Notes under the pieces: generated by a model
What the model was told of the DNA's origin: nothing
Database searches by the model: none
What the model saw: the letters and a program-made list of their open reading frames with translations, nothing else
In this document: positions 3,801 to 14,934 of the stretch, one piece after another
How positions within the stretch are numbered: position 1 is the first letter of the stretch
Layout: each line of letters starts with the position of its first letter
NCBI GenBank assembly: GCA_003231975.1
Contig: QIKW01000128.1
Coordinates: forward strand, 1 to 35,559
Source of the DNA: Acidimicrobiia bacterium
Lineage (GTDB): Bacteria > Actinomycetota > Acidimicrobiia > Acidimicrobiales > SZUA-35
DNA length: 35,559 nucleotides
Direction of reading: 5' to 3'
Made by a program: the position numbers and the translations under genes

Positions 3801-4727
3801 AACCAGGCAGATTCCGCCTTCACCCGCCTCGCATCGCTCTAGCTTGTGCAACAGAACGGCGCGCTCATCGTTGCGGCCAACCATGGTGGTTTCGAGCTGC
3901 ACCCGGTGACGGCTGCTGCCTCCTCCGGGGCCGAGTTCGGCCACCAACGCCAACGTCTCTTCGGTTGGGTCAAGGCCAAGCTCGGTCTGGAGGATACGCG
4001 TGCACGCCGCCAGCTGCCGCCTGGCCTCTACCGGACGCTCGAGCAAGAGACAGAGCCGGATGACCTCGCGGTGGCTGTGCTCTCTGAGGGGGTCGACTAA
4101 TACCCGCTGGCGCGCCCAGCGCAACGCTCCGTCAAGGTCGCCGATCAAACGACGAGACTGCACCAGCCAACCCAGCAAGTCCAGCCAGGCATGAACCAAC
4201 CGATCTCGCTCTGGGAAGATCCAGTCGTCGTAGTGGCCATCCAGCAATGGCCCCCGATACAGCTGGGCCACTTCTTCAAGCACGGTTACCGGGACGGCCC
4301 TGGTATTCACCAGCAAGGCGGCACCGATCTCGGCGGTCCTATGCATGAAGTCGACCGAGTCCACAACGCACTGCTCTCCGGCCGTGAACTGAACAGTGCC
4401 GCTGGTAGCCACAATTGGGTTGAACCCGGCAGGCTCGAGGCTGCGCCGAATTTTCCACAACGTCTGACTTAGCCTGCGCCTGCCCTGCTGCTCTGAAAGA
4501 TCGGGCCAGAACTTGCCAATTAGCGCGTCACGGGTATGGGCGGTGCCAGCATGCAGGGCCAGAAACGAAAGGAGTGTGCGCGAGAACTCTGAAGAGACCG
4601 GCACATCCTCATTGTTAACTGAGAGCCGGAACCCTCCAAGCAGACGAAGAAAAATACTCGGCTGTAGTGACCCTGAACCCACCGCCTTATTACTAGCGTT
4701 CGGCGCCTCGTACACAAGATCGCCCAT
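861..4727 (-). CDS. Large BTAD/AAA-ATPase/TPR transcriptional regulator
   Basis: This 1288-aa protein has the layout of large SARP/AfsR-like regulators. An OmpR-type winged helix covers about residues 24-105 (LRLLGGFRLSVNN... then ...LWKIRRSLEP). A bacterial transcriptional activator domain (BTAD) covers about 120-255. An AAA/NTPase module follows, with Walker A GDSGSGKS at 311-318 and Walker B LVFIEDLQW at 426-434. A long alpha-helical region with TPR-like repeats fills about 700-1130. The last 60 residues look like a second helix-turn-helix (IDDLAGVLDASRATVKRDL), a DeoR-like arrangement not usual at this end of the family. GGTGGGAG lies in front of the ATG. The gene is divergent from the PRC-barrel gene and may control it; ligand and targets are unknown. 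Confidence 0.88.
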   Translation of the reverse strand: MGDLVYEAPNASNKAVGSGSLQPSIFLRLLGGFRLSVNNEDVPVSSEFSRTLLSFLALHAGTAHTRDALIGKFWPDLSEQQGRRRLSQTLWKIRRSLEPAGFNPIVATSGTVQFTAGEQCVVDSVDFMHRTAEIGAALLVNTRAVPVTVLEEVAQLYRGPLLDGHYDDWIFPERDRLVHAWLDLLGWLVQSRRLIGDLDGALRWARQRVLVDPLREHSHREVIRLCLLLERPVEARRQLAACTRILQTELGLDPTEETLALVAELGPGGGSSRHRVQLETTMVGRNDERAVLLHKLERCEAGEGGICLVAGDSGSGKSKLLQDLADRAGFRGATVMWAECAERTINRPYAGLVPALAESLRGIRGEHVVEMVEPLWVEAAAKVIPELMDDVVSPMRQALEPDEERWRQDEALARLVLTGGRVSPTLVFIEDLQWSDLSTLSVLKSLASRLHEAGVLLCISYRKLEAKRRPEVWELLTGLEVVDGAVALALGPLSVEAVAELAVAVASWAPGEAAIKRLRDETDGNPYFIVETLRAWPDYEVAAVNGVKPRFPLVSTVADVLSRRFSQLTIPTQDLLKVMAVAVRPLRTAEISEVAGVASARVRLLLGEAIDAALVEDLGRHYVIRHQQVREAIRATVEPLAAVALHGKVVDLLTGELCGNPSWDEVGDHAFAAELWDAAADAFWLAAREATEVFATVAAVSHLDRAIDSVSRLPTEDVADRRNTSVEMLLLLENQLDVLGERARQGEALAQLDQLLSAPASRPSWTQRTLGEIGRRRVLLLANQSEFKAATTELLNGQGSEDLADDPQRQALLGTILNWAGDAADAVPVLEEAVVRLQAAGLAVGPALRTLGSALTEVQEFDGAVRHLKRALAEAEAANDVRGQIDAHGYLANAFTQQGQVSEAEADYSTALKMASEIGYRRAEGVNLVNLGLLYALSGRGSRALARYDDAEKVFESMGHQRGLAFVRFNRADVRCSLLGDVDSAEKDAKAAVEFFWTVGDRRHESYAFDVLANVSRLRGRVTACRRHVERAQRRALATGDRFLEVQATRTLAHLELGLGRPAELLAAVQSALSICKELSLDSQIPALRALEAQGLLQLGQTEEALDVAKRAAQLVEGRTALPHLALWWCAEVVRECQGVEPSGPLVQRAWDALERAVDGLDSEQRTLALSRVPENKAITKAQERLAPSLVKLRLPDISAPTGRPLRPDEFVAVRWTVTAPADFVATTKVERRRAQLLRLTTEAADQGAAPRIDDLAGVLDASRATVKRDLAYLRGLGYQPATRGSIV

Positions 4728-4809
4728 GCACTGCTCCCACCTGCTACGCCTTTAAAGTTGACTGATCCAGCTGCACCTGTTTAGCAGATGCAGCTTCCAG
4801 GAGCCTGGC

Positions 4810-4908
4810 TGACGTCAAGAATCTGGGCCTACAGGGCCCCCATATGACGTTTCCCTTGACGAACGTAACGTATTCCGTCATATTGTTACGAAGGCGTGAC
4901 AACGTAAG
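4810..4908. promoter_or_regulatory. TGACG-rich divergent control region
   Basis: The region between the BTAD regulator and the PRC-barrel gene holds the palindrome TGACGTCA (4810-4817), TGACG at 4845 and 4857, CGTCA at 4876-4880, and TGACAACGT from 4897. ATATGACG (4842-4849) and CGTCATAT (4876-4883) form an 8-bp inverted repeat flanking the -35 and overlapping the -10 of the plus-strand promoter. Repeated cores of this kind suit a regulator binding site. That the neighbouring BTAD protein binds here is inference. Confidence 0.45.
4856..4884 (+). promoter_or_regulatory. Promoter of the PRC-barrel gene
   Basis: TTGACG (4856-4861) is followed after exactly 17 nt by CATATT (4879-4884), a reasonable primary-sigma -35/-10 pair. 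The start codon lies 33 nt downstream behind a strong AAGGAG site. Confidence 0.45.
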
Positions 4909-4917
4909 GAGTCCGAA

Positions 4918-5238
4918 ATGTCCACCTACGAGCCTGCCGCCATCTCGTTTCGCGGCAATGTAGTGATTGACACCAAAGGCGACACTGTAGGCACAATCAC
5001 TGACGTAATCTATGACCCCCAAGGCAATCCCGAAAAGCCATCCTGGATGGTGGTAAACCCTGGCATCTTCAGATCAGAGCACTACGTGCCTGTTGACGGT
5101 GCCTACGCAACGAAGGACGATCGGATTGTGGTCCCCTTCGACAAGCGCTGGATAAAGGCAGCGCCAAAGGCATCCGGCGATCATGTGCTCGACGCGCCGA
5201 TCCGTCGAGAGCTCCAGGTGCACTACAAGCTCCTGTAA
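4918..5238 (+). CDS. PRC-barrel domain protein
   Basis: This 106-aa soluble protein is almost entirely one PRC-barrel fold, with the motif series FRGNVVIDTKGDTVGTITDV, then DPQGNPEKPSWMVVNPG and YVPVDGAY. Such small beta-barrels occur in RimM, in the H subunit of photosynthetic reaction centres, and in many stand-alone bacterial proteins, some stress-induced; the role of the stand-alone forms is poorly known. AAGGAG precedes the ATG with normal spacing. It stands alone on the plus strand, divergent from the BTAD regulator and convergent with msrA, and its promoter lies in the TGACG-rich region, so it is the most obvious candidate target of that regulator. Confidence 0.85.
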   Translation: MSTYEPAAISFRGNVVIDTKGDTVGTITDVIYDPQGNPEKPSWMVVNPGIFRSEHYVPVDGAYATKDDRIVVPFDKRWIKAAPKASGDHVLDAPIRRELQVHYKLL

Positions 5239-5320
5239 CCAGCCGTGTCGAGTCGGGAGAGGCCTTGGCTGACGCTCCCTCCAGTGGTCAGTCCCTTGGT
5301 CGCTCCCGGCTTGACGCCAG

Positions 5321-5978: not shown

Positions 5979-8879
5979 TCAGGCTCCGGCTGCCTCAGTG
6001 GTTGGTGGCGAATCCGGAACACCCAGGATATCTGACAACGCCTCCAGCGCCGCAAGCGCCTCAGCCCGCAGTTCCTCGGCCGTTTCGGGCTCGCTGGCCT
6101 CAACCAGGTTGGCGGCGTCAAGCAAAGTCTCAACTCGCGCTACCAGTTCGGCAACCGTGAGGTCGGCCAGGTCTCCCACCTCGGGAACCGGGCTTTCCTC
6201 TTCGCCATTTTCAGGTGAAGACGGTTGCGGTTCGGGTGGTGGCCGAGTTGTGCCCGCCCCGTCGACTGTGATGCCCCTGAGTGCCTCTTCAAGCGTTTCG
6301 GCCATGGCGATCCGACCGCCGTTCACAGCAATCACACGGTTCAGTTCAGGAACCGCCGTTGTGGTGTCGGCCTTGATGTAGAGAGGTCGCACGTAGACAA
6401 CGGTGTTCTCAACCAGAACCATCTGCATCTGGCCGAATTCGAGGGTTGACCCCTCTCGGTTTCGCAGCGAGATGAACGGAGAAATGATGTCGTCTCGGCG
6501 GATGTCGGAGTCGATCAGATCTGGGGCGGAAAGCCGACCAGCGGGCAGCCGGTACTGAATGAGGGTGCCGTACCTTTCGGGATCCGATGGCGCAACCATG
6601 ATGGCTGTGAGTTCGGGGCGGCCGGTGCTGGCATCGCCTGAGCTTGGGACAAAGCCACGCTGAAGCACAAACGACGACTGGTCCTCGTTTGGAAGCCGGG
6701 TGGTTCGGTACTGCGGGGTCATCAGCACGGTTGCAGCCGCAGGAGAGTCTTCGTCTCCACCGGCCTGGAACGGCTGGCTGGTAACACGCCAAGCCTGAGC
6801 GCCTTCAAGGAAGCGAATGGGGCTGGCAACCTGGTATGTGTCCCAGGTTTCGGTTTGCACATTGAAGATGTCTGTGGGGTAGCGGAAGTGTTCTTCGATG
6901 CTTTGGGGCACCTCGTCGATTGATTGGAACAGGTCTGGGAAAGTCTTGGCCCAGGCAGCAACGATGGGATCGTCTTCGTCGATCACGTAGAAGCTGACAT
7001 CGCCGTTGTAGGCGTCAACCACGGCCTTTACCGAATTGCGGACATAGTTGAAGCCACCTGAAAGGTCTGAGCCCTGGTTTGAGCGAACGCTTACTCCTTG
7101 TGAGTAGGGAAACTCAGACGTTGTGGTGTAGGCATCAACGATCCAATAGATCTGGCCGTTGGCGACAATCGGGTAGGGGTCGCTGTCGAAGCTGAGAAAC
7201 GGCGCCAGTTCTCGCACCCGTTCCCCGACGTCGCGGTTGTAGATAACCCGCGAGCCGCTCTGAATGAAGGGGGAAATCAGCACCTCATACTGCTGGAACC
7301 GCAAAGCAAACGCGGTGCGGCGAACCAAGCCCGACATTGGCACGCCTGCGGTTCCGTCGTAGCGATAGTTGACCGACTCTCCAGCCACGTAATCAACCTC
7401 GTCACGGCTGGCTCCGACGATGGCGTAGCCACTAAAATCCTCATCGAAATAGACCTGAGGTTGGGTGAGGTCGATGGCGAACCCTTCCGCAATCCGCTGC
7501 TCGTCGGGACCGATTCCACTGACCACGTAATCTGGCAGGCCTCCACTGGTGGCATCGGATGAGGCCATGGCCACGCCGTACCCGTGGGTGTTCACGATGT
7601 GCTGCTTTTCCCAGTCGCTGTCTACGCGCGCCAGGTTCAGACTGCGGACCCCAATAGTTACCGGTTCAAGCTCGCCGTCGACCATGTAGCGGTCAACATC
7701 AAGCGGCTCGGAAAACTGGTAGAGCTCCCTGCCTCCTTCGCTGCGGTTGAACGCGTCAGCCGCCAGCTGCGGATCAAGAATCGAGATGTCTTCAAAAACG
7801 TCGGCGTTGGCCTCTAGCTGAGCGACGGTTAACGCGGGCTCGTAGGGAAGATCCACCTCAATGAGGTTCCCCTCGTCCAGCCCGTATGCAAACCGCGTGG
7901 CTTCGATGTTGCGGGCTATGAATGGCTCTTCACGGCTTGACTGCTCTACCTCAACTCTGAGGCGCTGATAGAGGGAGGGATAGATGGTGGCAACAACCAC
8001 GTGGCTTACCGCCCAGAGGCCAAGGGCAACAACGGGAAGCACCCAACCCTCGCGGCGAATGTTGAACAGGACAAGCACCGCACCGAACAACGAGATGACA
8101 ACCAGCAACTTCAGGGCCGGTAACTGGACCTGAACGTCTGTGCTGAGGGCCCCGTCGTACAAGCCGCGGTTTGAGTTGACCAAGTGGAACCGGTCAAGCC
8201 AATAGGCGACAGCGCGAAGCACGGCCAGCACGGCCAGCAGGATCGAAAGGTGCAGCTTGACCCCGCTGGTGACGCGGTTCGACGGAACAGTGGCCCTTAT
8301 CCCCCCGTTCAGGTAGTGGGCAATCAGGGAGAGAATGAGGGCGAATACCAGCGCTGAGAAAAACCAGTCAACCAAAAACGTCCAGAACGGCAGCCGGAAA
8401 ATGTAGAACCCGGCGTCTTTGTTGAACAAAGGATCCGTGCGCCCGAAGTCTCCGCCGTTGATGAACAAAAGCCACGTCTGCCATTGGGCTGCGGTGTTCC
8501 CCCCCGCAACCAGGGCGAACAGGGCCGAAATGCCGACTCGAATCTTGCCAACGTGCGAGCCAACAATCTGGTGGTAGCGCTCGATCAGATCCTCTTCAGG
8601 AGATTCGGGCCTCATCGACGGAGCGAACCGGTCGGCCAGATACAGATTCACCCACAGAATCATGAAGAAGATGACGGAGAAGCCAACGGCCAGCGTGAAC
8701 TGGGTGCCAACAATGGTGGTCCAGACCGAGCCGCGCTCTAACGAGTCAAACCAAAGCCAATCTGTGTAGAGCCTGGCAACGCCACTGGCCGACAGGAACA
8801 GAACCAGCAGCAGCCCAACGGCAATTGCGACAAAGATTCGAATTCGGGAGGATCGGCCTGAGCCGCGCATTGGTCGCAT
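5979..8879 (-). CDS. UPF0182 family membrane protein
   Basis: This 966-aa protein matches the actinobacterial UPF0182 family in length and layout. The N-terminal third has several transmembrane helices (for example IFVAIAVGLLLVLFLSASG near residue 15, and hydrophobic segments up to about residue 300). A large extracytoplasmic domain follows, with typical stretches such as ARNIEATRFAYGL and YVVSGIGPDEQRIAEGFAIDL. The last 80 residues are acidic and helical. Its biochemical role is not established. In mycobacteria the family lies next to a YlbL-type PDZ protein and a DUF2342 protein (from memory); here YlbL lies two genes upstream and DUF2342 about 6 kb away. A TAACCT box ends 9 nt before the ATG. 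Confidence 0.93.
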   Translation of the reverse strand: MRPMRGSGRSSRIRIFVAIAVGLLLVLFLSASGVARLYTDWLWFDSLERGSVWTTIVGTQFTLAVGFSVIFFMILWVNLYLADRFAPSMRPESPEEDLIERYHQIVGSHVGKIRVGISALFALVAGGNTAAQWQTWLLFINGGDFGRTDPLFNKDAGFYIFRLPFWTFLVDWFFSALVFALILSLIAHYLNGGIRATVPSNRVTSGVKLHLSILLAVLAVLRAVAYWLDRFHLVNSNRGLYDGALSTDVQVQLPALKLLVVISLFGAVLVLFNIRREGWVLPVVALGLWAVSHVVVATIYPSLYQRLRVEVEQSSREEPFIARNIEATRFAYGLDEGNLIEVDLPYEPALTVAQLEANADVFEDISILDPQLAADAFNRSEGGRELYQFSEPLDVDRYMVDGELEPVTIGVRSLNLARVDSDWEKQHIVNTHGYGVAMASSDATSGGLPDYVVSGIGPDEQRIAEGFAIDLTQPQVYFDEDFSGYAIVGASRDEVDYVAGESVNYRYDGTAGVPMSGLVRRTAFALRFQQYEVLISPFIQSGSRVIYNRDVGERVRELAPFLSFDSDPYPIVANGQIYWIVDAYTTTSEFPYSQGVSVRSNQGSDLSGGFNYVRNSVKAVVDAYNGDVSFYVIDEDDPIVAAWAKTFPDLFQSIDEVPQSIEEHFRYPTDIFNVQTETWDTYQVASPIRFLEGAQAWRVTSQPFQAGGDEDSPAAATVLMTPQYRTTRLPNEDQSSFVLQRGFVPSSGDASTGRPELTAIMVAPSDPERYGTLIQYRLPAGRLSAPDLIDSDIRRDDIISPFISLRNREGSTLEFGQMQMVLVENTVVYVRPLYIKADTTTAVPELNRVIAVNGGRIAMAETLEEALRGITVDGAGTTRPPPEPQPSSPENGEEESPVPEVGDLADLTVAELVARVETLLDAANLVEASEPETAEELRAEALAALEALSDILGVPDSPPTTEAAGA

Positions 8880-8937: not shown

Positions 8938-10962
8938 TCAGCTTTCGGCCTCAACCACGAGGCAACGACAGCCCGGCTCGCCCCCCGGATGCGCCAAGCC
9001 GGTCGGGAACGGATCGGGTTTCACCACGGATATGGCAAGTGTGTTGTCAAAACAGTCTGCTGTTGGTTCGAACCTGGGGTCGGCAAGCCAACGCAACTCG
9101 GTTCCCTCTGCCAGGGCCTGATAGGCGCCAAGGGCGAACGCCTCGGAGAGGGCATCGTCGGTGATTGCGCCAACTTCAGAGGTTCGCAGATCCCTGTAGT
9201 GAGCCCGCACCGGTTCCAGCACTTCGTCCATGTCTCCGCCTGCAGCCTCGACGGCTTGTTCGATCCGAGCCCGAAGCGGGCCATGGATCAGCGACGTAAC
9301 CCTGTCGGCAAGGGCCAGAGCCTCAGCCTCGGCGGCAGACCCGCCAGTCATTGCCGCGCCTGCCTCGGCCGCGGCGACCATAGACGGGGCAAGGGCATCG
9401 AGGTAGGAGGCTCGTTGGGCATCAACCGGGGGAAGGTGTTTGGTTGACATTTTCTTCGCTCGCCGGAGACGATCCAAGACGTCGCTTTGATCATCTGCCA
9501 TTATCCGCTTGATGCGACGACGTAGATCGGCCCCCTGACGGGTCATGGCAATGTCTCGCTGGAGGAAACAGTCAGGCACATGGATTTCCTCTTCCTCCTC
9601 CCCTGCATCCTCGTCCCCTCCTTCTTCGTCCTCGGCCCCATCGGCCAGGTCAGATTCAACGACGGCGACAGCAGGCTCGGCGGATACCTGATCCGCACCG
9701 GCCTGTTCCGTGCTGGCCTGTTCCGTGCTGGCCTCACCCTCGCCTTCGGGCCCATCCAGCGACTCGAGAGCGGCAGACCCTGAAGTAACCACCGGCGGCT
9801 CTGGCAGCACTCCAGAGCCGCGCGCGCCATCAAGCTCGATCTCAAGATCCCGGACGTCCTGACCATCCTCGGATTCGGTGCTGCGGCGGGCCACCGCGTC
9901 AATCGCTGACTTGGCCTCTGGCAAGGCGGCCTCAAGCTCGGCGGCCGAATCGTCAATCTGGCGTCGTACTTCGTCAACTGCGCGTTGCAGACGATCTCGG
10001 GCTGCCTTGGCCTGGTCAAGTTGCTGGCGGCCAAGCCGTCGGCGCTTCACCAGGTCCGCCAGCACCTTTTCGCGAACCTGCTGGGCTTCAACGACCATGA
10101 AGCGCGCCGTCTCTTTCGCCCCTTCTTGGGAAGCCAGTGCGTCGGCTTCAGACTCGGCCCCAATTCGAGCCGCCTCGGTTTCGGCATCAGCCATCAAGGA
10201 CTCTGCTGCCGATACCAGCTCGGCCCGCTCGGCCTCAGCCTTCACCTTCGAGGCTGCCGCAGCGTCCTCAGTCTTTCGACGGGCCTGCTGGGTCTCGGCC
10301 AAAGCCTCAGCACGCAGGGCTTCCACTTCTGTGGCGGCCACAAGTCGGACCTCGGCCGCCTCATCTGCTGCGGCCTGTCGGTTGGCGTCTGCCTCTTCGC
10401 CTGCGGTTGTTCGCATCGCGTCAGCCTCGGCCTGGCTTGATGATGTCAGCTCTGCCGCCTCGGCCTCGGCCGACCTTTGAACGTCGGCAGCATCGCTGTG
10501 GGCCTGCCGGAGCAGTTCGGACACGTCTTTGTTGGCAATGGCCTGAACCCGGTCCACTTCATCTGTTCTGGCTTGGGCATCACTCTCGGCTTTGGCCACG
10601 ATGCCTGCCGCCGCGGCGTTGGCGGCCTCCAAGATTCGGGTCGTTTCTTCGCCGATGTAGCGGGTGATGCTGGCCTCGTCCAGCTCGACCTCGCCCTCAT
10701 CGGCGGCCTCAAGGGCCGCGCCGAGCTGATCGATCCGGGCCTCAAGCTCGGCGTTTTGATCTGTGAGTGAATCCAGGTCACGCTTGGCAGCCCGCAGCGC
10801 GTCAGAATTCTTATCACCTGCCCGATCCTGCCGCGCTATTGCCTCTGAGAGGCCACGAAGGTAGGCCTTCACTTCGGCCTGATCGAAGCCCCGAAACGAG
10901 GTTGAGAACGACCGGGCAGATATTGAGGCCGGATCAAGTGCCGGGTCACCAACAGAGCTCAT
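8938..10962 (-). CDS. DivIVA-domain coiled-coil protein with MuF-like C-terminus
   Basis: This 674-aa protein starts with a DivIVA-type membrane-targeting segment (FSTSFRGFDQAEVKAYLRGL, about residues 18-37), followed by a very long Ala/Glu/Arg-rich coiled coil to about 340. An acidic low-complexity stretch (about 390-470) contains a tandem ASTEQ repeat. The C-terminus is unexpected: W625, D628, C637-x-DN, F652-PTG, H658-P and GCRC at 664-667 follow the spacing of the zinc-binding end of phage Mu gpF/SPP1 gp7-type head morphogenesis proteins. DivIVA proteins recruit partners to curved membrane at poles and septa; what the tail adds is unknown. It sits between YlbL and UPF0182. TACCAT ends 8 nt before the ATG. 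Confidence 0.8.
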   Translation of the reverse strand: MSSVGDPALDPASISARSFSTSFRGFDQAEVKAYLRGLSEAIARQDRAGDKNSDALRAAKRDLDSLTDQNAELEARIDQLGAALEAADEGEVELDEASITRYIGEETTRILEAANAAAAGIVAKAESDAQARTDEVDRVQAIANKDVSELLRQAHSDAADVQRSAEAEAAELTSSSQAEADAMRTTAGEEADANRQAAADEAAEVRLVAATEVEALRAEALAETQQARRKTEDAAAASKVKAEAERAELVSAAESLMADAETEAARIGAESEADALASQEGAKETARFMVVEAQQVREKVLADLVKRRRLGRQQLDQAKAARDRLQRAVDEVRRQIDDSAAELEAALPEAKSAIDAVARRSTESEDGQDVRDLEIELDGARGSGVLPEPPVVTSGSAALESLDGPEGEGEASTEQASTEQAGADQVSAEPAVAVVESDLADGAEDEEGGDEDAGEEEEEIHVPDCFLQRDIAMTRQGADLRRRIKRIMADDQSDVLDRLRRAKKMSTKHLPPVDAQRASYLDALAPSMVAAAEAGAAMTGGSAAEAEALALADRVTSLIHGPLRARIEQAVEAAGGDMDEVLEPVRAHYRDLRTSEVGAITDDALSEAFALGAYQALAEGTELRWLADPRFEPTADCFDNTLAISVVKPDPFPTGLAHPGGEPGCRCLVVEAES
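9701..9730. repeat. 15-bp tandem repeat inside the DivIVA gene
   Basis: Two perfect copies of GCCTGTTCCGTGCTG (9701-9715 and 9716-9730) encode ASTEQ twice in the acidic linker on the minus strand. The unit length keeps the frame, so copy number could vary without disrupting the protein. Confidence 0.8.
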
Positions 10963-11057: not shown

Positions 11058-12284
11058 TTAGGGGTTGGCAGCTGCGAACTCCTCTATCGCCTCGGTATTG
11101 CCCCCAAGCGAGGCAAGTGCTTCGAGGGCTTCATCAAGAGTCTCCACTGGAATGATTTCGAGATCATCACCAGCCGCAAGGCGAATCTGGGCGATGGCCT
11201 CTTCGCCAAGAGCGGCGGGAATGATGAAGACCTCCGCCCCAAGGTCTCGCACAGCCGCGGTTTTCTGGAGGACGCCGCCAACCGAACCGACCCGGCCGTC
11301 GGGGCTGATTGATCCGGTCACAGCCACTTGGGCACCGCCGGTAAGTTCACCAGGAGTCAACTGATCGAGGACGGCAAGCGCAAACACCAGCCCCGCAGAC
11401 GGCCCACCGACAGATCCCGAGTCGATCGAAATCTCGAACGGCAAATCGTCTGCGAACTGAATTCGGGTTTGGGGAGCAACTCCGAGGAACGCCGCGTTTT
11501 CGTCGTCTGGCTTGGCCCCGAGACTGATTCTGAGATCTTCGATTTCCAGGGCGCCTTCGCCGGTGGGCCGGTAACGTTCCACGGTTAGGACGATCTCGTC
11601 GCCCGGGGCCAGGCCCTTCAACCGGTCAACCAGCTCGAGAGCCGAAACCATGGGCGCACCGTCCATCGCCACCACCACATCGCCTGGGGTGAGCACCCCC
11701 TCAGCAGCACCACCTTCGACAACTTCAACAATGAAAACCCCGTCTGAGGAGATGGCGTCGTAGCCCAGTTCTTCAAGGGCGACAGCAACCGCTGTGCCTA
11801 TCGAATCGGTCATGGCCTGAAGGTTCAGCTCGCGGTTTTCGTCGGGGCTGCGGTCGCCAAGGATCACATCCTCGGGAACGATCTCGTTATCGTCATCCAA
11901 CTGAAGCCAGAGGTAGTGCCAGAGGTTGGGCCTAGTACGCAGGCGCACCGTTGTGAACAGCAACTCGCCGTCGCTTGGGAACTCGTCTATGCCAGAAAGC
12001 TCAATCAGCGGTTCGGTGTCTCGCGCCGACCCGGGAATCAGGGCTACGTAAGGGGTTTGGTAGGTGAAGCCGCCAATCACGACCGCAGCAAGTAGCACCG
12101 ACATCACGATGCCAACCCTTCGCCAGGGTCGCGCCCGCTTGGGTTTGGGCCCACCCGGAGCCTCGGAGCTGCCGAACACAGACCCAGAAGAGGCCATGGC
12201 GAACCCGGTGTGTCCTGGGCCGGCGGCTATGCTCTTGTTGTCCTGTCCGTTCGAGTCGGTCATTTCAGAACTTTCGGTCACCAT
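11058..12284 (-). CDS. YlbL-type membrane protease, PDZ plus Lon (S16) domain
   Basis: This 408-aa protein has a cytoplasmic N-terminus, one transmembrane helix (VGIVMSVLLAAVVIGGFTY, about residues 57-75), a PDZ domain (about 190-250) and a C-terminal Lon-type proteolytic domain. The catalytic Ser is in GGPSAGL and the Lys is in the QKTAA segment about 45 residues later, the Ser-Lys dyad of family S16. There is no AAA module, as in Bacillus YlbL. The family is thought to act in membrane protein quality control, but substrates here are unknown. It is the first gene of a minus-strand series with the DivIVA protein, UPF0182 and MsrA. ATG 12284 is followed by in-frame GTG 12281 and ATG 12263; no strong ribosome site decides between them. 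Confidence 0.92.
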   Translation of the reverse strand: MVTESSEMTDSNGQDNKSIAAGPGHTGFAMASSGSVFGSSEAPGGPKPKRARPWRRVGIVMSVLLAAVVIGGFTYQTPYVALIPGSARDTEPLIELSGIDEFPSDGELLFTTVRLRTRPNLWHYLWLQLDDDNEIVPEDVILGDRSPDENRELNLQAMTDSIGTAVAVALEELGYDAISSDGVFIVEVVEGGAAEGVLTPGDVVVAMDGAPMVSALELVDRLKGLAPGDEIVLTVERYRPTGEGALEIEDLRISLGAKPDDENAAFLGVAPQTRIQFADDLPFEISIDSGSVGGPSAGLVFALAVLDQLTPGELTGGAQVAVTGSISPDGRVGSVGGVLQKTAAVRDLGAEVFIIPAALGEEAIAQIRLAAGDDLEIIPVETLDEALEALASLGGNTEAIEEFAAANP

Positions 12285-12698: not shown

Positions 12699-13130
12699 TC
12701 AGCGTCCGAAGAGGCCTCGGCGTGCCCCCACGCCATTGTCTCCACCGTCGGTGCTGATAGTTGGTGCGTCTGTGATTGACCGGACGGTTGAGGAATCAGC
12801 CGTGGTGCTGTCTGTCGACGAACTACTGCTGGCAGCCGAAGTGGCAGACGAGGTGCTCGCCGGGGGGTCTTTCGGGACGCTGACCGGATCACCGGCAGAA
12901 ACCGCCGGAGCAACAGCGGCAGCCGTCAAGGCCGGCTCGCCTGCGGTGAGCTCTACCCGGAAGTAGGGCCGATATTCAAAGTTGACCTCTTCGGTGCGGA
13001 GGATCCGATCCACCTCAACACCCTGAGTGTTTCTGAGGCGCTCAACGAACGCTACTGCGTCGTGAACCTCCTCGGTCTCGTGATAGCCGGGGTTTCCGTC
13101 GGCACCTCGGTACATAACTATGTGTGGCAT
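12699..13130 (-). CDS. Hypothetical protein with Ser/Thr-rich tail
   Basis: GAAGGAGA seven bases upstream fixes the start at ATG 13130 (143 aa), although the frame is open further upstream. The first 60 residues form a compact domain (MPHIVMYRGADGNPGYHETE, then VDRILRTEEVNFEYRPYFRVEL) that looks like a small alpha/beta fold. The remaining half is low complexity, rich in Ala, Ser, Thr and Val, and ends RRGLFGR. I do not recognise the family. The cytoplasmic-looking head with a long disordered tail may indicate a protein-binding adaptor, but this is a guess. It is divergent from the HEAT-repeat gene. Confidence 0.75.
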   Translation of the reverse strand: MPHIVMYRGADGNPGYHETEEVHDAVAFVERLRNTQGVEVDRILRTEEVNFEYRPYFRVELTAGEPALTAAAVAPAVSAGDPVSVPKDPPASTSSATSAASSSSSTDSTTADSSTVRSITDAPTISTDGGDNGVGARRGLFGR

Positions 13131-13253
13131 AACTTTGTCTCCTTCAGGGGGCGGTCTTCTAGCTAGCGGTTCCATTTGGGGGGCTTCGCACACGGTGACC
13201 CGAGCACGGGGTCAGCAGGGCGACGGGAGGACCGGCACCCCAACAACCCGCTA

Positions 13254-13259
13254 TAGCAT
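13254..13259 (+). promoter_or_regulatory. -10 box TAGCAT of the HEAT-repeat gene
   Basis: TAGCAT (within TATAGCAT) ends 10 nt before GTG 13270, implying a 5' leader of only a few nucleotides. There is no ribosome site before the GTG. Confidence 0.4.
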
Positions 13260-13269
13260 TCCAGATTCT

Positions 13270-13911
13270 GTGACTGGAAACCACCCCTCATTTGCATCAG
13301 CTTCAATAATTGGACGTATAGCGCGCGCAGGCCACGACGGAAACATCGCCCTCGCGAAGGCGGAACTCTCCTCTGATAGCGCCACGAATCGGGCATTTGC
13401 CCTCGGCGCAATGCATCGCTCCGGGCATCTCAATTGTGTCACTCTTTGTGGCTTTTTTACCGATCCCAGCCCCGCTGTGAGGCGGCGAGCAGCCGAAATT
13501 GCGGCCAGAACCATCAAACCGGGCTCGTTGGAGCAAGGTTTGGTCAAGCTGCTGGATGATGATTCGACAGTGTCCGAAGCCGCAGCTTTCGCTATAGGTG
13601 AGATCGGTTCAGAGTATGGTGTTGAGCTGGCGCCCGAAACGGTGGAGGCCCTTGAGCGTCAAGCCCGCCAGCATCAAGACGCGCTTTGTCGAGAGTCTGC
13701 CATTGCCGCCCTTGGCGCTGTTCACAAAGGCCTCAGCACAATCCTGTTTGGCTGCAACGACAAGGCAACCGTTCGCAGGCGGGCTGTGATAGCGCTGGCC
13801 CCCTTCGACGGGCCAGAGGTAACAGCCGCTTTGGAAAAGGCGCTTGGCGACAAGGACTGGCAGGTCCGCCAAGCGGCCGAAGACCTGCTGGCAGACCAAG
13901 CCGCTAACTGA
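13270..13911 (+). CDS. HEAT-repeat protein
   Basis: The frame is open from 13120, but the first 50 codons overlap the divergent gene and have no protein character. GTG 13270, just behind a -10 box, is the likely start, giving 213 aa. The product is built of HEAT-type helical pairs: FFTDPSPAVRRRAAEIAART, then LVKLLDDDSTVSEAAAFAIG, DALCRESAIAALGAV and LGDKDWQVRQAAEDLLADQ. Such solenoids serve as protein-binding scaffolds, and PBS-lyase-like members act with cofactor-binding proteins. The partner is unknown. The gene ends 6 bp from the convergent mreB stop codon. Confidence 0.82.
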   Translation: MTGNHPSFASASIIGRIARAGHDGNIALAKAELSSDSATNRAFALGAMHRSGHLNCVTLCGFFTDPSPAVRRRAAEIAARTIKPGSLEQGLVKLLDDDSTVSEAAAFAIGEIGSEYGVELAPETVEALERQARQHQDALCRESAIAALGAVHKGLSTILFGCNDKATVRRRAVIALAPFDGPEVTAALEKALGDKDWQVRQAAEDLLADQAAN

Positions 13912-13917
13912 GCAAGC

Positions 13918-14934
13918 TCAGCGCCTACGGCTGCTGCGGCCCGTCATGAACATGTCGGTCACCTGGTCGAACGACTCGATGCACTGGCCGGCGCCCAGCA
14001 CTACAGACTCGAGGGGCTGGTCGACCAGATGAACGTGAACTCTTGCTTCAGCAGCCACCCTCTCGGCCATCCCTCGTAGTAGACCGCCGCCCCCGACGAG
14101 GTGGATTCCGCGGCCGATCAAGTCCTGGGCCAGCTCGGGAGGTGCGGCCCCCAGGCAGGAAACGACCGAGTCGACCATGGCCGAGACGGGCTCGTCGATG
14201 GCCTCCCTCACTTCAGTGCTTGTAAGGGTGATCGTGCGCGGAAGGCCACTCATAATCTCGCGGCCTCGAACATCTCCTTCATACTCTTCAGCTCCTGGCC
14301 ACGCAGAACCGATGGCAACCTTGATTTGCTCAGCCGTCTGCTCGCCAACCGCGATTCCGTGGGTGCGACGCACGTGAGTTTGAATGGCAGCGTCGATGTC
14401 AAAGCTGCCAACCCGCACGGCCTCCAGCGCCACGACACCACCCAGAGAGATCAGGGCGGTCTCGGTAGTTCCGCCCCCGATGTCTATGACCATGTTGCCA
14501 ATTGGCTGATCTATTGGAAGCTTCGAGCCGATCGCGGCAGCCATTGGCTGCTCGAGTAGATGGGCTTCCACCGCTCCGGCCCGCCGCGCCGCTTCGCGCA
14601 CAGCCCGCTGCTCCACCGCGGTGATGGCAGAAGGCACACAAATTACTACCCGTGGGCGGTTGAATCGACTAACCCCGGCCCGGTGCAAAACCATGCGAAT
14701 CATTCGCTCGGTAATGTCAAAGTCGGTGATGGCCCCCTGGCGGAGCGGCCGAACGGCAACGATATGGCTTGGCGTGCGGCCGATCATTTTCCATGCGTCA
14801 CGACCTATAGCCAAGACATCACCAGAGCGCGTGTTAAGAGCTATCACCGAAGGTTCGTTCAAAACGATGCCCTCGTCTCGGGCGTAGACCAGCGTGTTGG
14901 CAGTACCAAGATCGATTGCGAGGTCTCTACTCAC
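13918..14934 (-). CDS. mreB: MreB/Mbl-family actin-like protein
   Basis: This 338-aa protein is a full-length bacterial actin. The phosphate 1 motif is LAIDLGTANTLVY (residues 5-17), the phosphate 2 region VIDIGGGTTE, and the adenosine motif GIHLVGGGGLLRGM; SVVLGAGQCIE near the end is also typical. MreB forms membrane-bound filaments that organise lateral cell wall synthesis. The usual mreC/mreD partners are not downstream; instead the gene starts inside the moaE stop codon (4-bp ATGA overlap), so the two are probably translated together. A lone mreB could be a paralogue such as Mbl. The ATG at 14934 is the only sensible start. Confidence 0.93.
   Translation of the reverse strand: MSRDLAIDLGTANTLVYARDEGIVLNEPSVIALNTRSGDVLAIGRDAWKMIGRTPSHIVAVRPLRQGAITDFDITERMIRMVLHRAGVSRFNRPRVVICVPSAITAVEQRAVREAARRAGAVEAHLLEQPMAAAIGSKLPIDQPIGNMVIDIGGGTTETALISLGGVVALEAVRVGSFDIDAAIQTHVRRTHGIAVGEQTAEQIKVAIGSAWPGAEEYEGDVRGREIMSGLPRTITLTSTEVREAIDEPVSAMVDSVVSCLGAAPPELAQDLIGRGIHLVGGGGLLRGMAERVAAEARVHVHLVDQPLESVVLGAGQCIESFDQVTDMFMTGRSSRRR

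Follow-up and report, generated by a model that had tools for sequence, protein, structure and literature searches.

A DivIVA coiled-coil protein with a phage MuF-type C-terminus is inherited next to UPF0182 in Acidimicrobiia

An N-terminal DivIVA segment followed by a coiled coil is common to DivIVA/Wag31, SepIVA, FilP, Scy and GpsB, and both features are present in the protein studied here, which also has a globular MuF C-terminus, a feature that the papers searched describe for none of them. In phages, MuF proteins are structural components of the head that are also found fused to effectors (PMC5512222), and they attach to the portal ring, as SPP1 gp7 does to gp6 (PMC6316719). The MuF/SPP1 gp7 minor head proteins (PF04233, TIGR01641) and the portal-MuF fusions (phrog_2662) resemble the cellular domain over its whole length, the common elements being a helical bundle and then an end with W, CxxC, F-P-x-G and (P)xHPxCRC. 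Unlike these phage proteins, the cellular protein lacks any portal, capsid or toxin domain and is fused to DivIVA and a coiled coil, its gene is chromosomal, vertically inherited and adjoins UPF0182, the Cys/His ligands are degraded in its own family, and the motif in helix 1 is cell-specific. A third point of reference is the UPF0182-YlbL neighbourhood of Actinomycetota, where the same gene pair occurs in the same order; the DivIVA-MuF gene intervenes in the class considered here, whereas no such gene does so in most other actinobacterial families examined. UPF0182 is a large conserved membrane family for which we know of no function. In Bacillus subtilis, YlbL helps to clear a division inhibitor (PMC6051672). 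A search of open-access papers for DivIVA together with MuF, Acidimicrobiia or head morphogenesis brought up no protein of this kind, in line with the statement at the outset that no described polar scaffold is known to have such an end.

The window, that is the whole stretch of 35,559 nucleotides analyzed here (contig QIKW01000128.1), was obtained from an uncultured organism in the order to which the nearest named relatives, Ilumatobacter-type MAGs, also belong. An open reading frame on its minus strand (10962..8938) with an ATG start encodes the DivIVA-coiled coil-MuF protein of 674 amino acids (8938..10962), which is present in single copy in its own genome. The next gene upstream (11058..12284, minus strand) encodes a YlbL-type PDZ/Lon-like membrane protease of 408 amino acids, assigned from its sequence and one predicted transmembrane segment; it is named for its likeness to the YlbL that PMC6051672 describes, and homologues were located by BLAST. 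The next gene downstream (5979..8879, minus strand) encodes a UPF0182 membrane protein of 966 amino acids (PF03699, E = 2.9e-233). Gaps of 95 bp on the YlbL side and of 58 bp on the UPF0182 side separate the three genes, a spacing on one strand that is consistent with an operon. Also in this neighbourhood, an MreB-like gene is found at 13918..14934 (minus strand), and genes for a small protein (12699..13193, minus strand) and a HEAT-repeat-like protein (13120..13911, plus strand), lying on opposite strands, are conserved in place beside YlbL and MreB in related genomes. In some lineages (f104), an MreB-like gene lies upstream of DivIVA-MuF where YlbL was not seen.

A search of the order, Acidimicrobiales, gave relatives in 296 of 397 genomes. 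In a census of 118 genomes of the order with at least 90% completeness, the MuF domain was detected in 97 and UPF0182 in 114; 97 genomes had both, none had MuF without UPF0182, 17 had UPF0182 without MuF, and four had neither, a joint absence that could be mimicked by an assembly gap across the pair. UPF0182 was the gene immediately downstream in 42 of 42 loci, all of which had been chosen by their MuF domain, and upstream of DivIVA-MuF the same loci usually, not always, had YlbL. Among the 17 genomes with UPF0182 only, five encode, immediately before UPF0182, a shorter protein made of DivIVA and a coiled coil, an arrangement that links the DivIVA part with UPF0182; eight have YlbL adjoining UPF0182 or very close by, and in the remaining four UPF0182 is located elsewhere. 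Outside the class, the fusion occurs in some actinobacterial families and is missing from others; genome-wide counts of absence are too high, since few candidates were scored per genome, and a locus-based check found the gene in class members for which it had been missed. Pairwise distances for MuF and UPF0182 correlate with r = 0.70 (0 of 2000 permutations). The DivIVA-MuF gene is one of long-standing vertical inheritance, probably going back to a single capture by an ancestor early in the history of the actinobacteria, with losses afterwards. Both a recent prophage remnant and an assembly chimera were ruled out by conservation in the order, by synteny and by the congruence of distances.

The original prediction had asked whether the same fusion exists in related genomes, and the DivIVA-MuF fusion proved to be conserved across the class. 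It had also described the gene as an interruption of the UPF0182-YlbL neighbourhood; the gene does sit between YlbL and UPF0182, but this is the normal gene order in its class. The MuF gene is not found among phage portal or capsid genes, its locus being a conserved chromosomal one (YlbL, UPF0182 and often MreB), and we therefore treat the MuF part as a domesticated domain and do not file the protein as a phage head protein.

At the N-terminus, residues 11-42 (10837..10932, minus strand; core FRGFDQAEVKAYL) form the DivIVA membrane-targeting segment that had been predicted, and this assignment was confirmed by a TIGR03544 match over residues 11-36 (E = 2.4e-4), by PF05103 matches whose pieces sum to 36.4 bits in a whole-genome scan (cut-off 28), and by orthologues that exceed the PF05103 cut-off outright, with a best E-value of 1.4e-15. 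The same genome encodes another DivIVA between SepF and IleS and a second one elsewhere. The interval between SepF and IleS is the usual place of the canonical DivIVA and, because a separate DivIVA is encoded there, the DivIVA-MuF protein is regarded as an accessory DivIVA.

A long Ala/Glu-rich coiled coil is predicted for residues 46-345 (9928..10827, minus strand). There is no proline over residues 12-347, and hydrophobic residues other than alanine are periodic at 3.5 and 3.67 residues (shuffle fractions of 0.017 and 0.006, respectively), which is the pattern expected of a coiled coil. The acidic linker that follows (residues 381-463; 9574..9822, minus strand) is probably disordered judging from its net charge, which amounts to -25 for residues 381-466. 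In 22 of 29 class members, the linker carries an LFARIR-like motif (consensus VDxLFARIRA) before MuF, and the motif recurs near the C-terminus of all five MuF-less DivIVA proteins (L210, L212-L214 and L218). Loci noted for the motif before MuF are L001, L083, L084, L087, L089-L095, L097, L099-L101, L103, L149-L152 and L194. It was observed 29 times as compared to a mean of 0.7 of 50 in shuffled sequences, a contrast that is descriptive because the sequences were already in view when the regular expression was written. The motif is absent from the protein of the window and present in that of the sister species, and possibly it binds a partner that these proteins share.

The MuF-type domain occupies residues 464-674 (8941..9573, minus strand) and consists of a four-helix bundle and a C-terminal beta/knuckle end. 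Taken alone, the C-terminus of the 674-residue protein gave no significant match in Pfam, NCBIfam or PHROG, and searches of its genome with PF04233 and phrog_2662 returned zero matches, so this copy has diverged too far to be matched by them and its identity rests on orthologues and on structural models. Among 31 orthologue domains, phrog_2662 (portal proteins, C-terminal positions 485-707) matched 17, with a best E-value of 3e-13, PF04233 (Phage_Mu_F) matched eight (best E = 9.5e-5) and TIGR01641 (SPP1 gp7) matched nine (best E = 0.0016); the phrog_2662 match is strong, and the bit scores for PF04233 and TIGR01641, where shown, are under the curated cut-offs. The MuF profiles are thus matched by orthologues and not by the diverged copy by itself. 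When phrog_2662 was run over whole genomes, it matched the DivIVA-MuF locus and nothing else in four of six genomes. A profile built from 60 cellular domains was aligned by hhalign to Methanoculleus virus gp11 with a probability of 98.3% over 212 columns, to the portal C-terminus of Strzyga with 98.2% and to Edmundo gp17, which is annotated as MuF-like, with 96.6%. Two of these three phage targets had been chosen by their similarity to an orthologue, and the fair comparison is therefore that with ten further proteins from these phages and from Mu, all of which remained below 1%. For Mu gpF, the match to the cellular profile was not significant and was confined to the CRC tail. Viral contigs searched with the cellular alignment yielded no relative, and therefore no close viral donor was identified in this search.

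AlphaFold2 predicted four helices within residues 455-674 (464-501, 513-539, 545-574 and 578-614) and, C-terminal to them, a small beta/knuckle end, with a pLDDT of 80 and a pTM of 0.75. Foldseek searches of predicted viral proteins in BFVD with this model retrieved head-morphogenesis, minor capsid and portal proteins with a probability of 1.00 and TMq values mostly of 0.4-0.67, all viral targets being predicted models themselves. The alignment behind the first model held four viral rows that might have biased it. A second model obtained with cellular rows only (pLDDT 77) showed the same bundle, in which the knuckle was of low confidence, and led back to these viral families, for which the E-values were somewhat better. 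Fold searches of the PDB returned generic helical bundles only and no solved MuF structure. Matches in sequence or fold to uS19, ZorA and Cas5 in the PDB were weak and are taken as chance, and the resemblance of helix 1 to archaeal/eukaryotic ribosomal protein uS19 (9457..9558, minus strand; E = 0.008-0.9) is probably of the same nature. The C-terminus had been predicted to be of the MuF type and an unrelated fold had been considered; the structure prediction recovered a viral MuF-type fold, and the homology reaches further than had been proposed, covering the whole domain of about 210 residues and not just the last 50.

The knuckle (residues 622-668; 8959..9099, minus strand) was defined by a census of ligands and by conservation, and the residues named in the original prediction are all there: W625, C637-F-D-N640, F652-P-T-G655, H658-P659 and G664-C-R-C667. 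In 60 orthologous domains, C665, C667 and G655 are conserved in 60/60, W625 in 58/60 and C637 in 53/60, and these five rank among the most conserved positions. The first canonical cysteine is kept in 41/60 and the canonical histidine in 44/60 cellular domains, and all five ligands of the knuckle C-x2-C...HP-x-C-R-C occur together in 34/60 orthologues, so that the expected Cys/His pattern is conserved in most of them. The proposed histidine of the HP pair was not borne out, as H658 does not lie in a conserved column and the canonical histidine column corresponds to E662. In the protein of the window, T634 aligns to the first canonical cysteine and E662 to the canonical histidine; both ligands are lost and only the cysteines C637, C665 and C667 are retained. 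The first cysteine and the canonical histidine are both absent from 15/15 sequences of its own family, 13 of which have an alternative histidine right after the FP(T/S)G motif that is missing in the window's protein (L656) and in the sister species. Metal stabilization, which was part of the original prediction, is not supported for this protein, given that its own genus keeps only three cysteines, that its own family has lost the first cysteine and the histidine and that family f65 is entirely without the knuckle. Metal binding by the window's protein appears doubtful because only C637, C665 and C667 remain.

Helix 1 (residues 469-502; 9457..9558, minus strand; consensus RD.A...L.R.LKR.L.DEQN..LD.LR) reaches about the same degree of conservation as the knuckle and is retained in lineages that lack the latter; in family f65, the helical part is retained and the knuckle is gone. 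One f65 genome has two UPF0182 loci (L151 and L152), each behind its own DivIVA-MuF protein, and both proteins stop after helix 4 without a knuckle, amounting to a natural deletion and duplication. In one genome of family f97, a MuF-like end without the usual cysteine pattern (DEARCTEV..FPSDG) is located just before UPF0182 (L180, about 4307-5250); it sits in a disrupted frame and looks decayed.

It is close to certain that the protein has a DivIVA domain and full-length MuF homology and fold, that it is vertically inherited across the class and that it is tightly linked to UPF0182. As to its function, we see about an even chance that it is an accessory DivIVA scaffold whose domesticated phage MuF domain serves for docking and which positions UPF0182 at curved membrane. 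The DivIVA segment would bind negatively curved membrane at poles or septum, and the coiled coil would oligomerize, with the C-termini projecting from it. The four-helix bundle of MuF would do the docking and so collect or position the UPF0182 protein from the adjacent gene, while the metal knuckle might just stabilize the end of the bundle and be expendable in some lineages, probably including that of the window. A docking role is suggested by analogy with the phage relatives, which dock on a multimeric ring, the portal, and UPF0182 is named as the docked or positioned partner solely because of its genomic linkage. Counting against such positioning, UPF0182 is present in some lineages in which MuF, or DivIVA altogether, is absent, and the protein is therefore not needed by UPF0182 everywhere. 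The YlbL neighbour would be in keeping with a setting in division or at the envelope, and we infer, as had been proposed at the outset, an interaction module at cell poles. More tentatively, a phage portal-docking domain may have been recruited once, early in actinobacterial evolution, to serve a polar DivIVA scaffold, the organizer of UPF0182, as its docking head.

The main rival to a docking scaffold is a polar or septal DNA tether, in which MuF would bind DNA and the DivIVA part would anchor that DNA at the membrane. SPP1 gp7 is termed a DNA-binding protein in work cited by PMC6316719, and 80alpha gp44, which is functionally similar to SPP1 gp7, shows no sequence preference in its binding of DNA ends (PMC7290940). 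Residues 467-520, which comprise helix 1 and its start, form a basic stretch with a net charge of +7 and conserved K/R positions, but most of the cellular MuF domains are acidic (pI about 5; negative net charge in 36/40) and the invariant partner gene encodes a membrane protein and is not a chromosome-segregation gene, which makes a tether unlikely. Far less probable is an anti-phage decoy, in which the cellular MuF would poison portal or capsid assembly of infecting phages. Defence genes are usually patchy in distribution, whereas the DivIVA-MuF gene occurs in most genomes, in single copy and vertically inherited at a fixed housekeeping locus, and a defence role is unlikely for this reason; PADLOC matched neither DivIVA-MuF nor its neighbours. 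What speaks for a decoy is that a phage head domain was retained by the host and that blocking the assembly of virions is among the known strategies of defence (PMC10884400). Convergence, by which a zinc knuckle would have evolved independently on a helical bundle without phage ancestry, might account for the generic bundles from the PDB and for the limited likeness to Mu gpF, but it is disfavoured and highly improbable in view of profile matches to portal/MuF families along the full length and of viral fold matches that persist after the viral rows were taken out of the alignment.

Returning to the accessory DivIVA scaffold with a docking MuF domain, the locus clearly illustrates how a structural domain of phages appears to have become a core component of the cell in the greater part of a bacterial class. 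From the cellular copies that lack the knuckle or the entire domain, it can be seen which parts of MuF are separable. Also, DivIVA-MuF names a cytoplasmic scaffold linked to UPF0182 and thereby offers a concrete handle on that membrane family. If the proposed function is true, it would be a cellular positioning system made from a virus assembly part.
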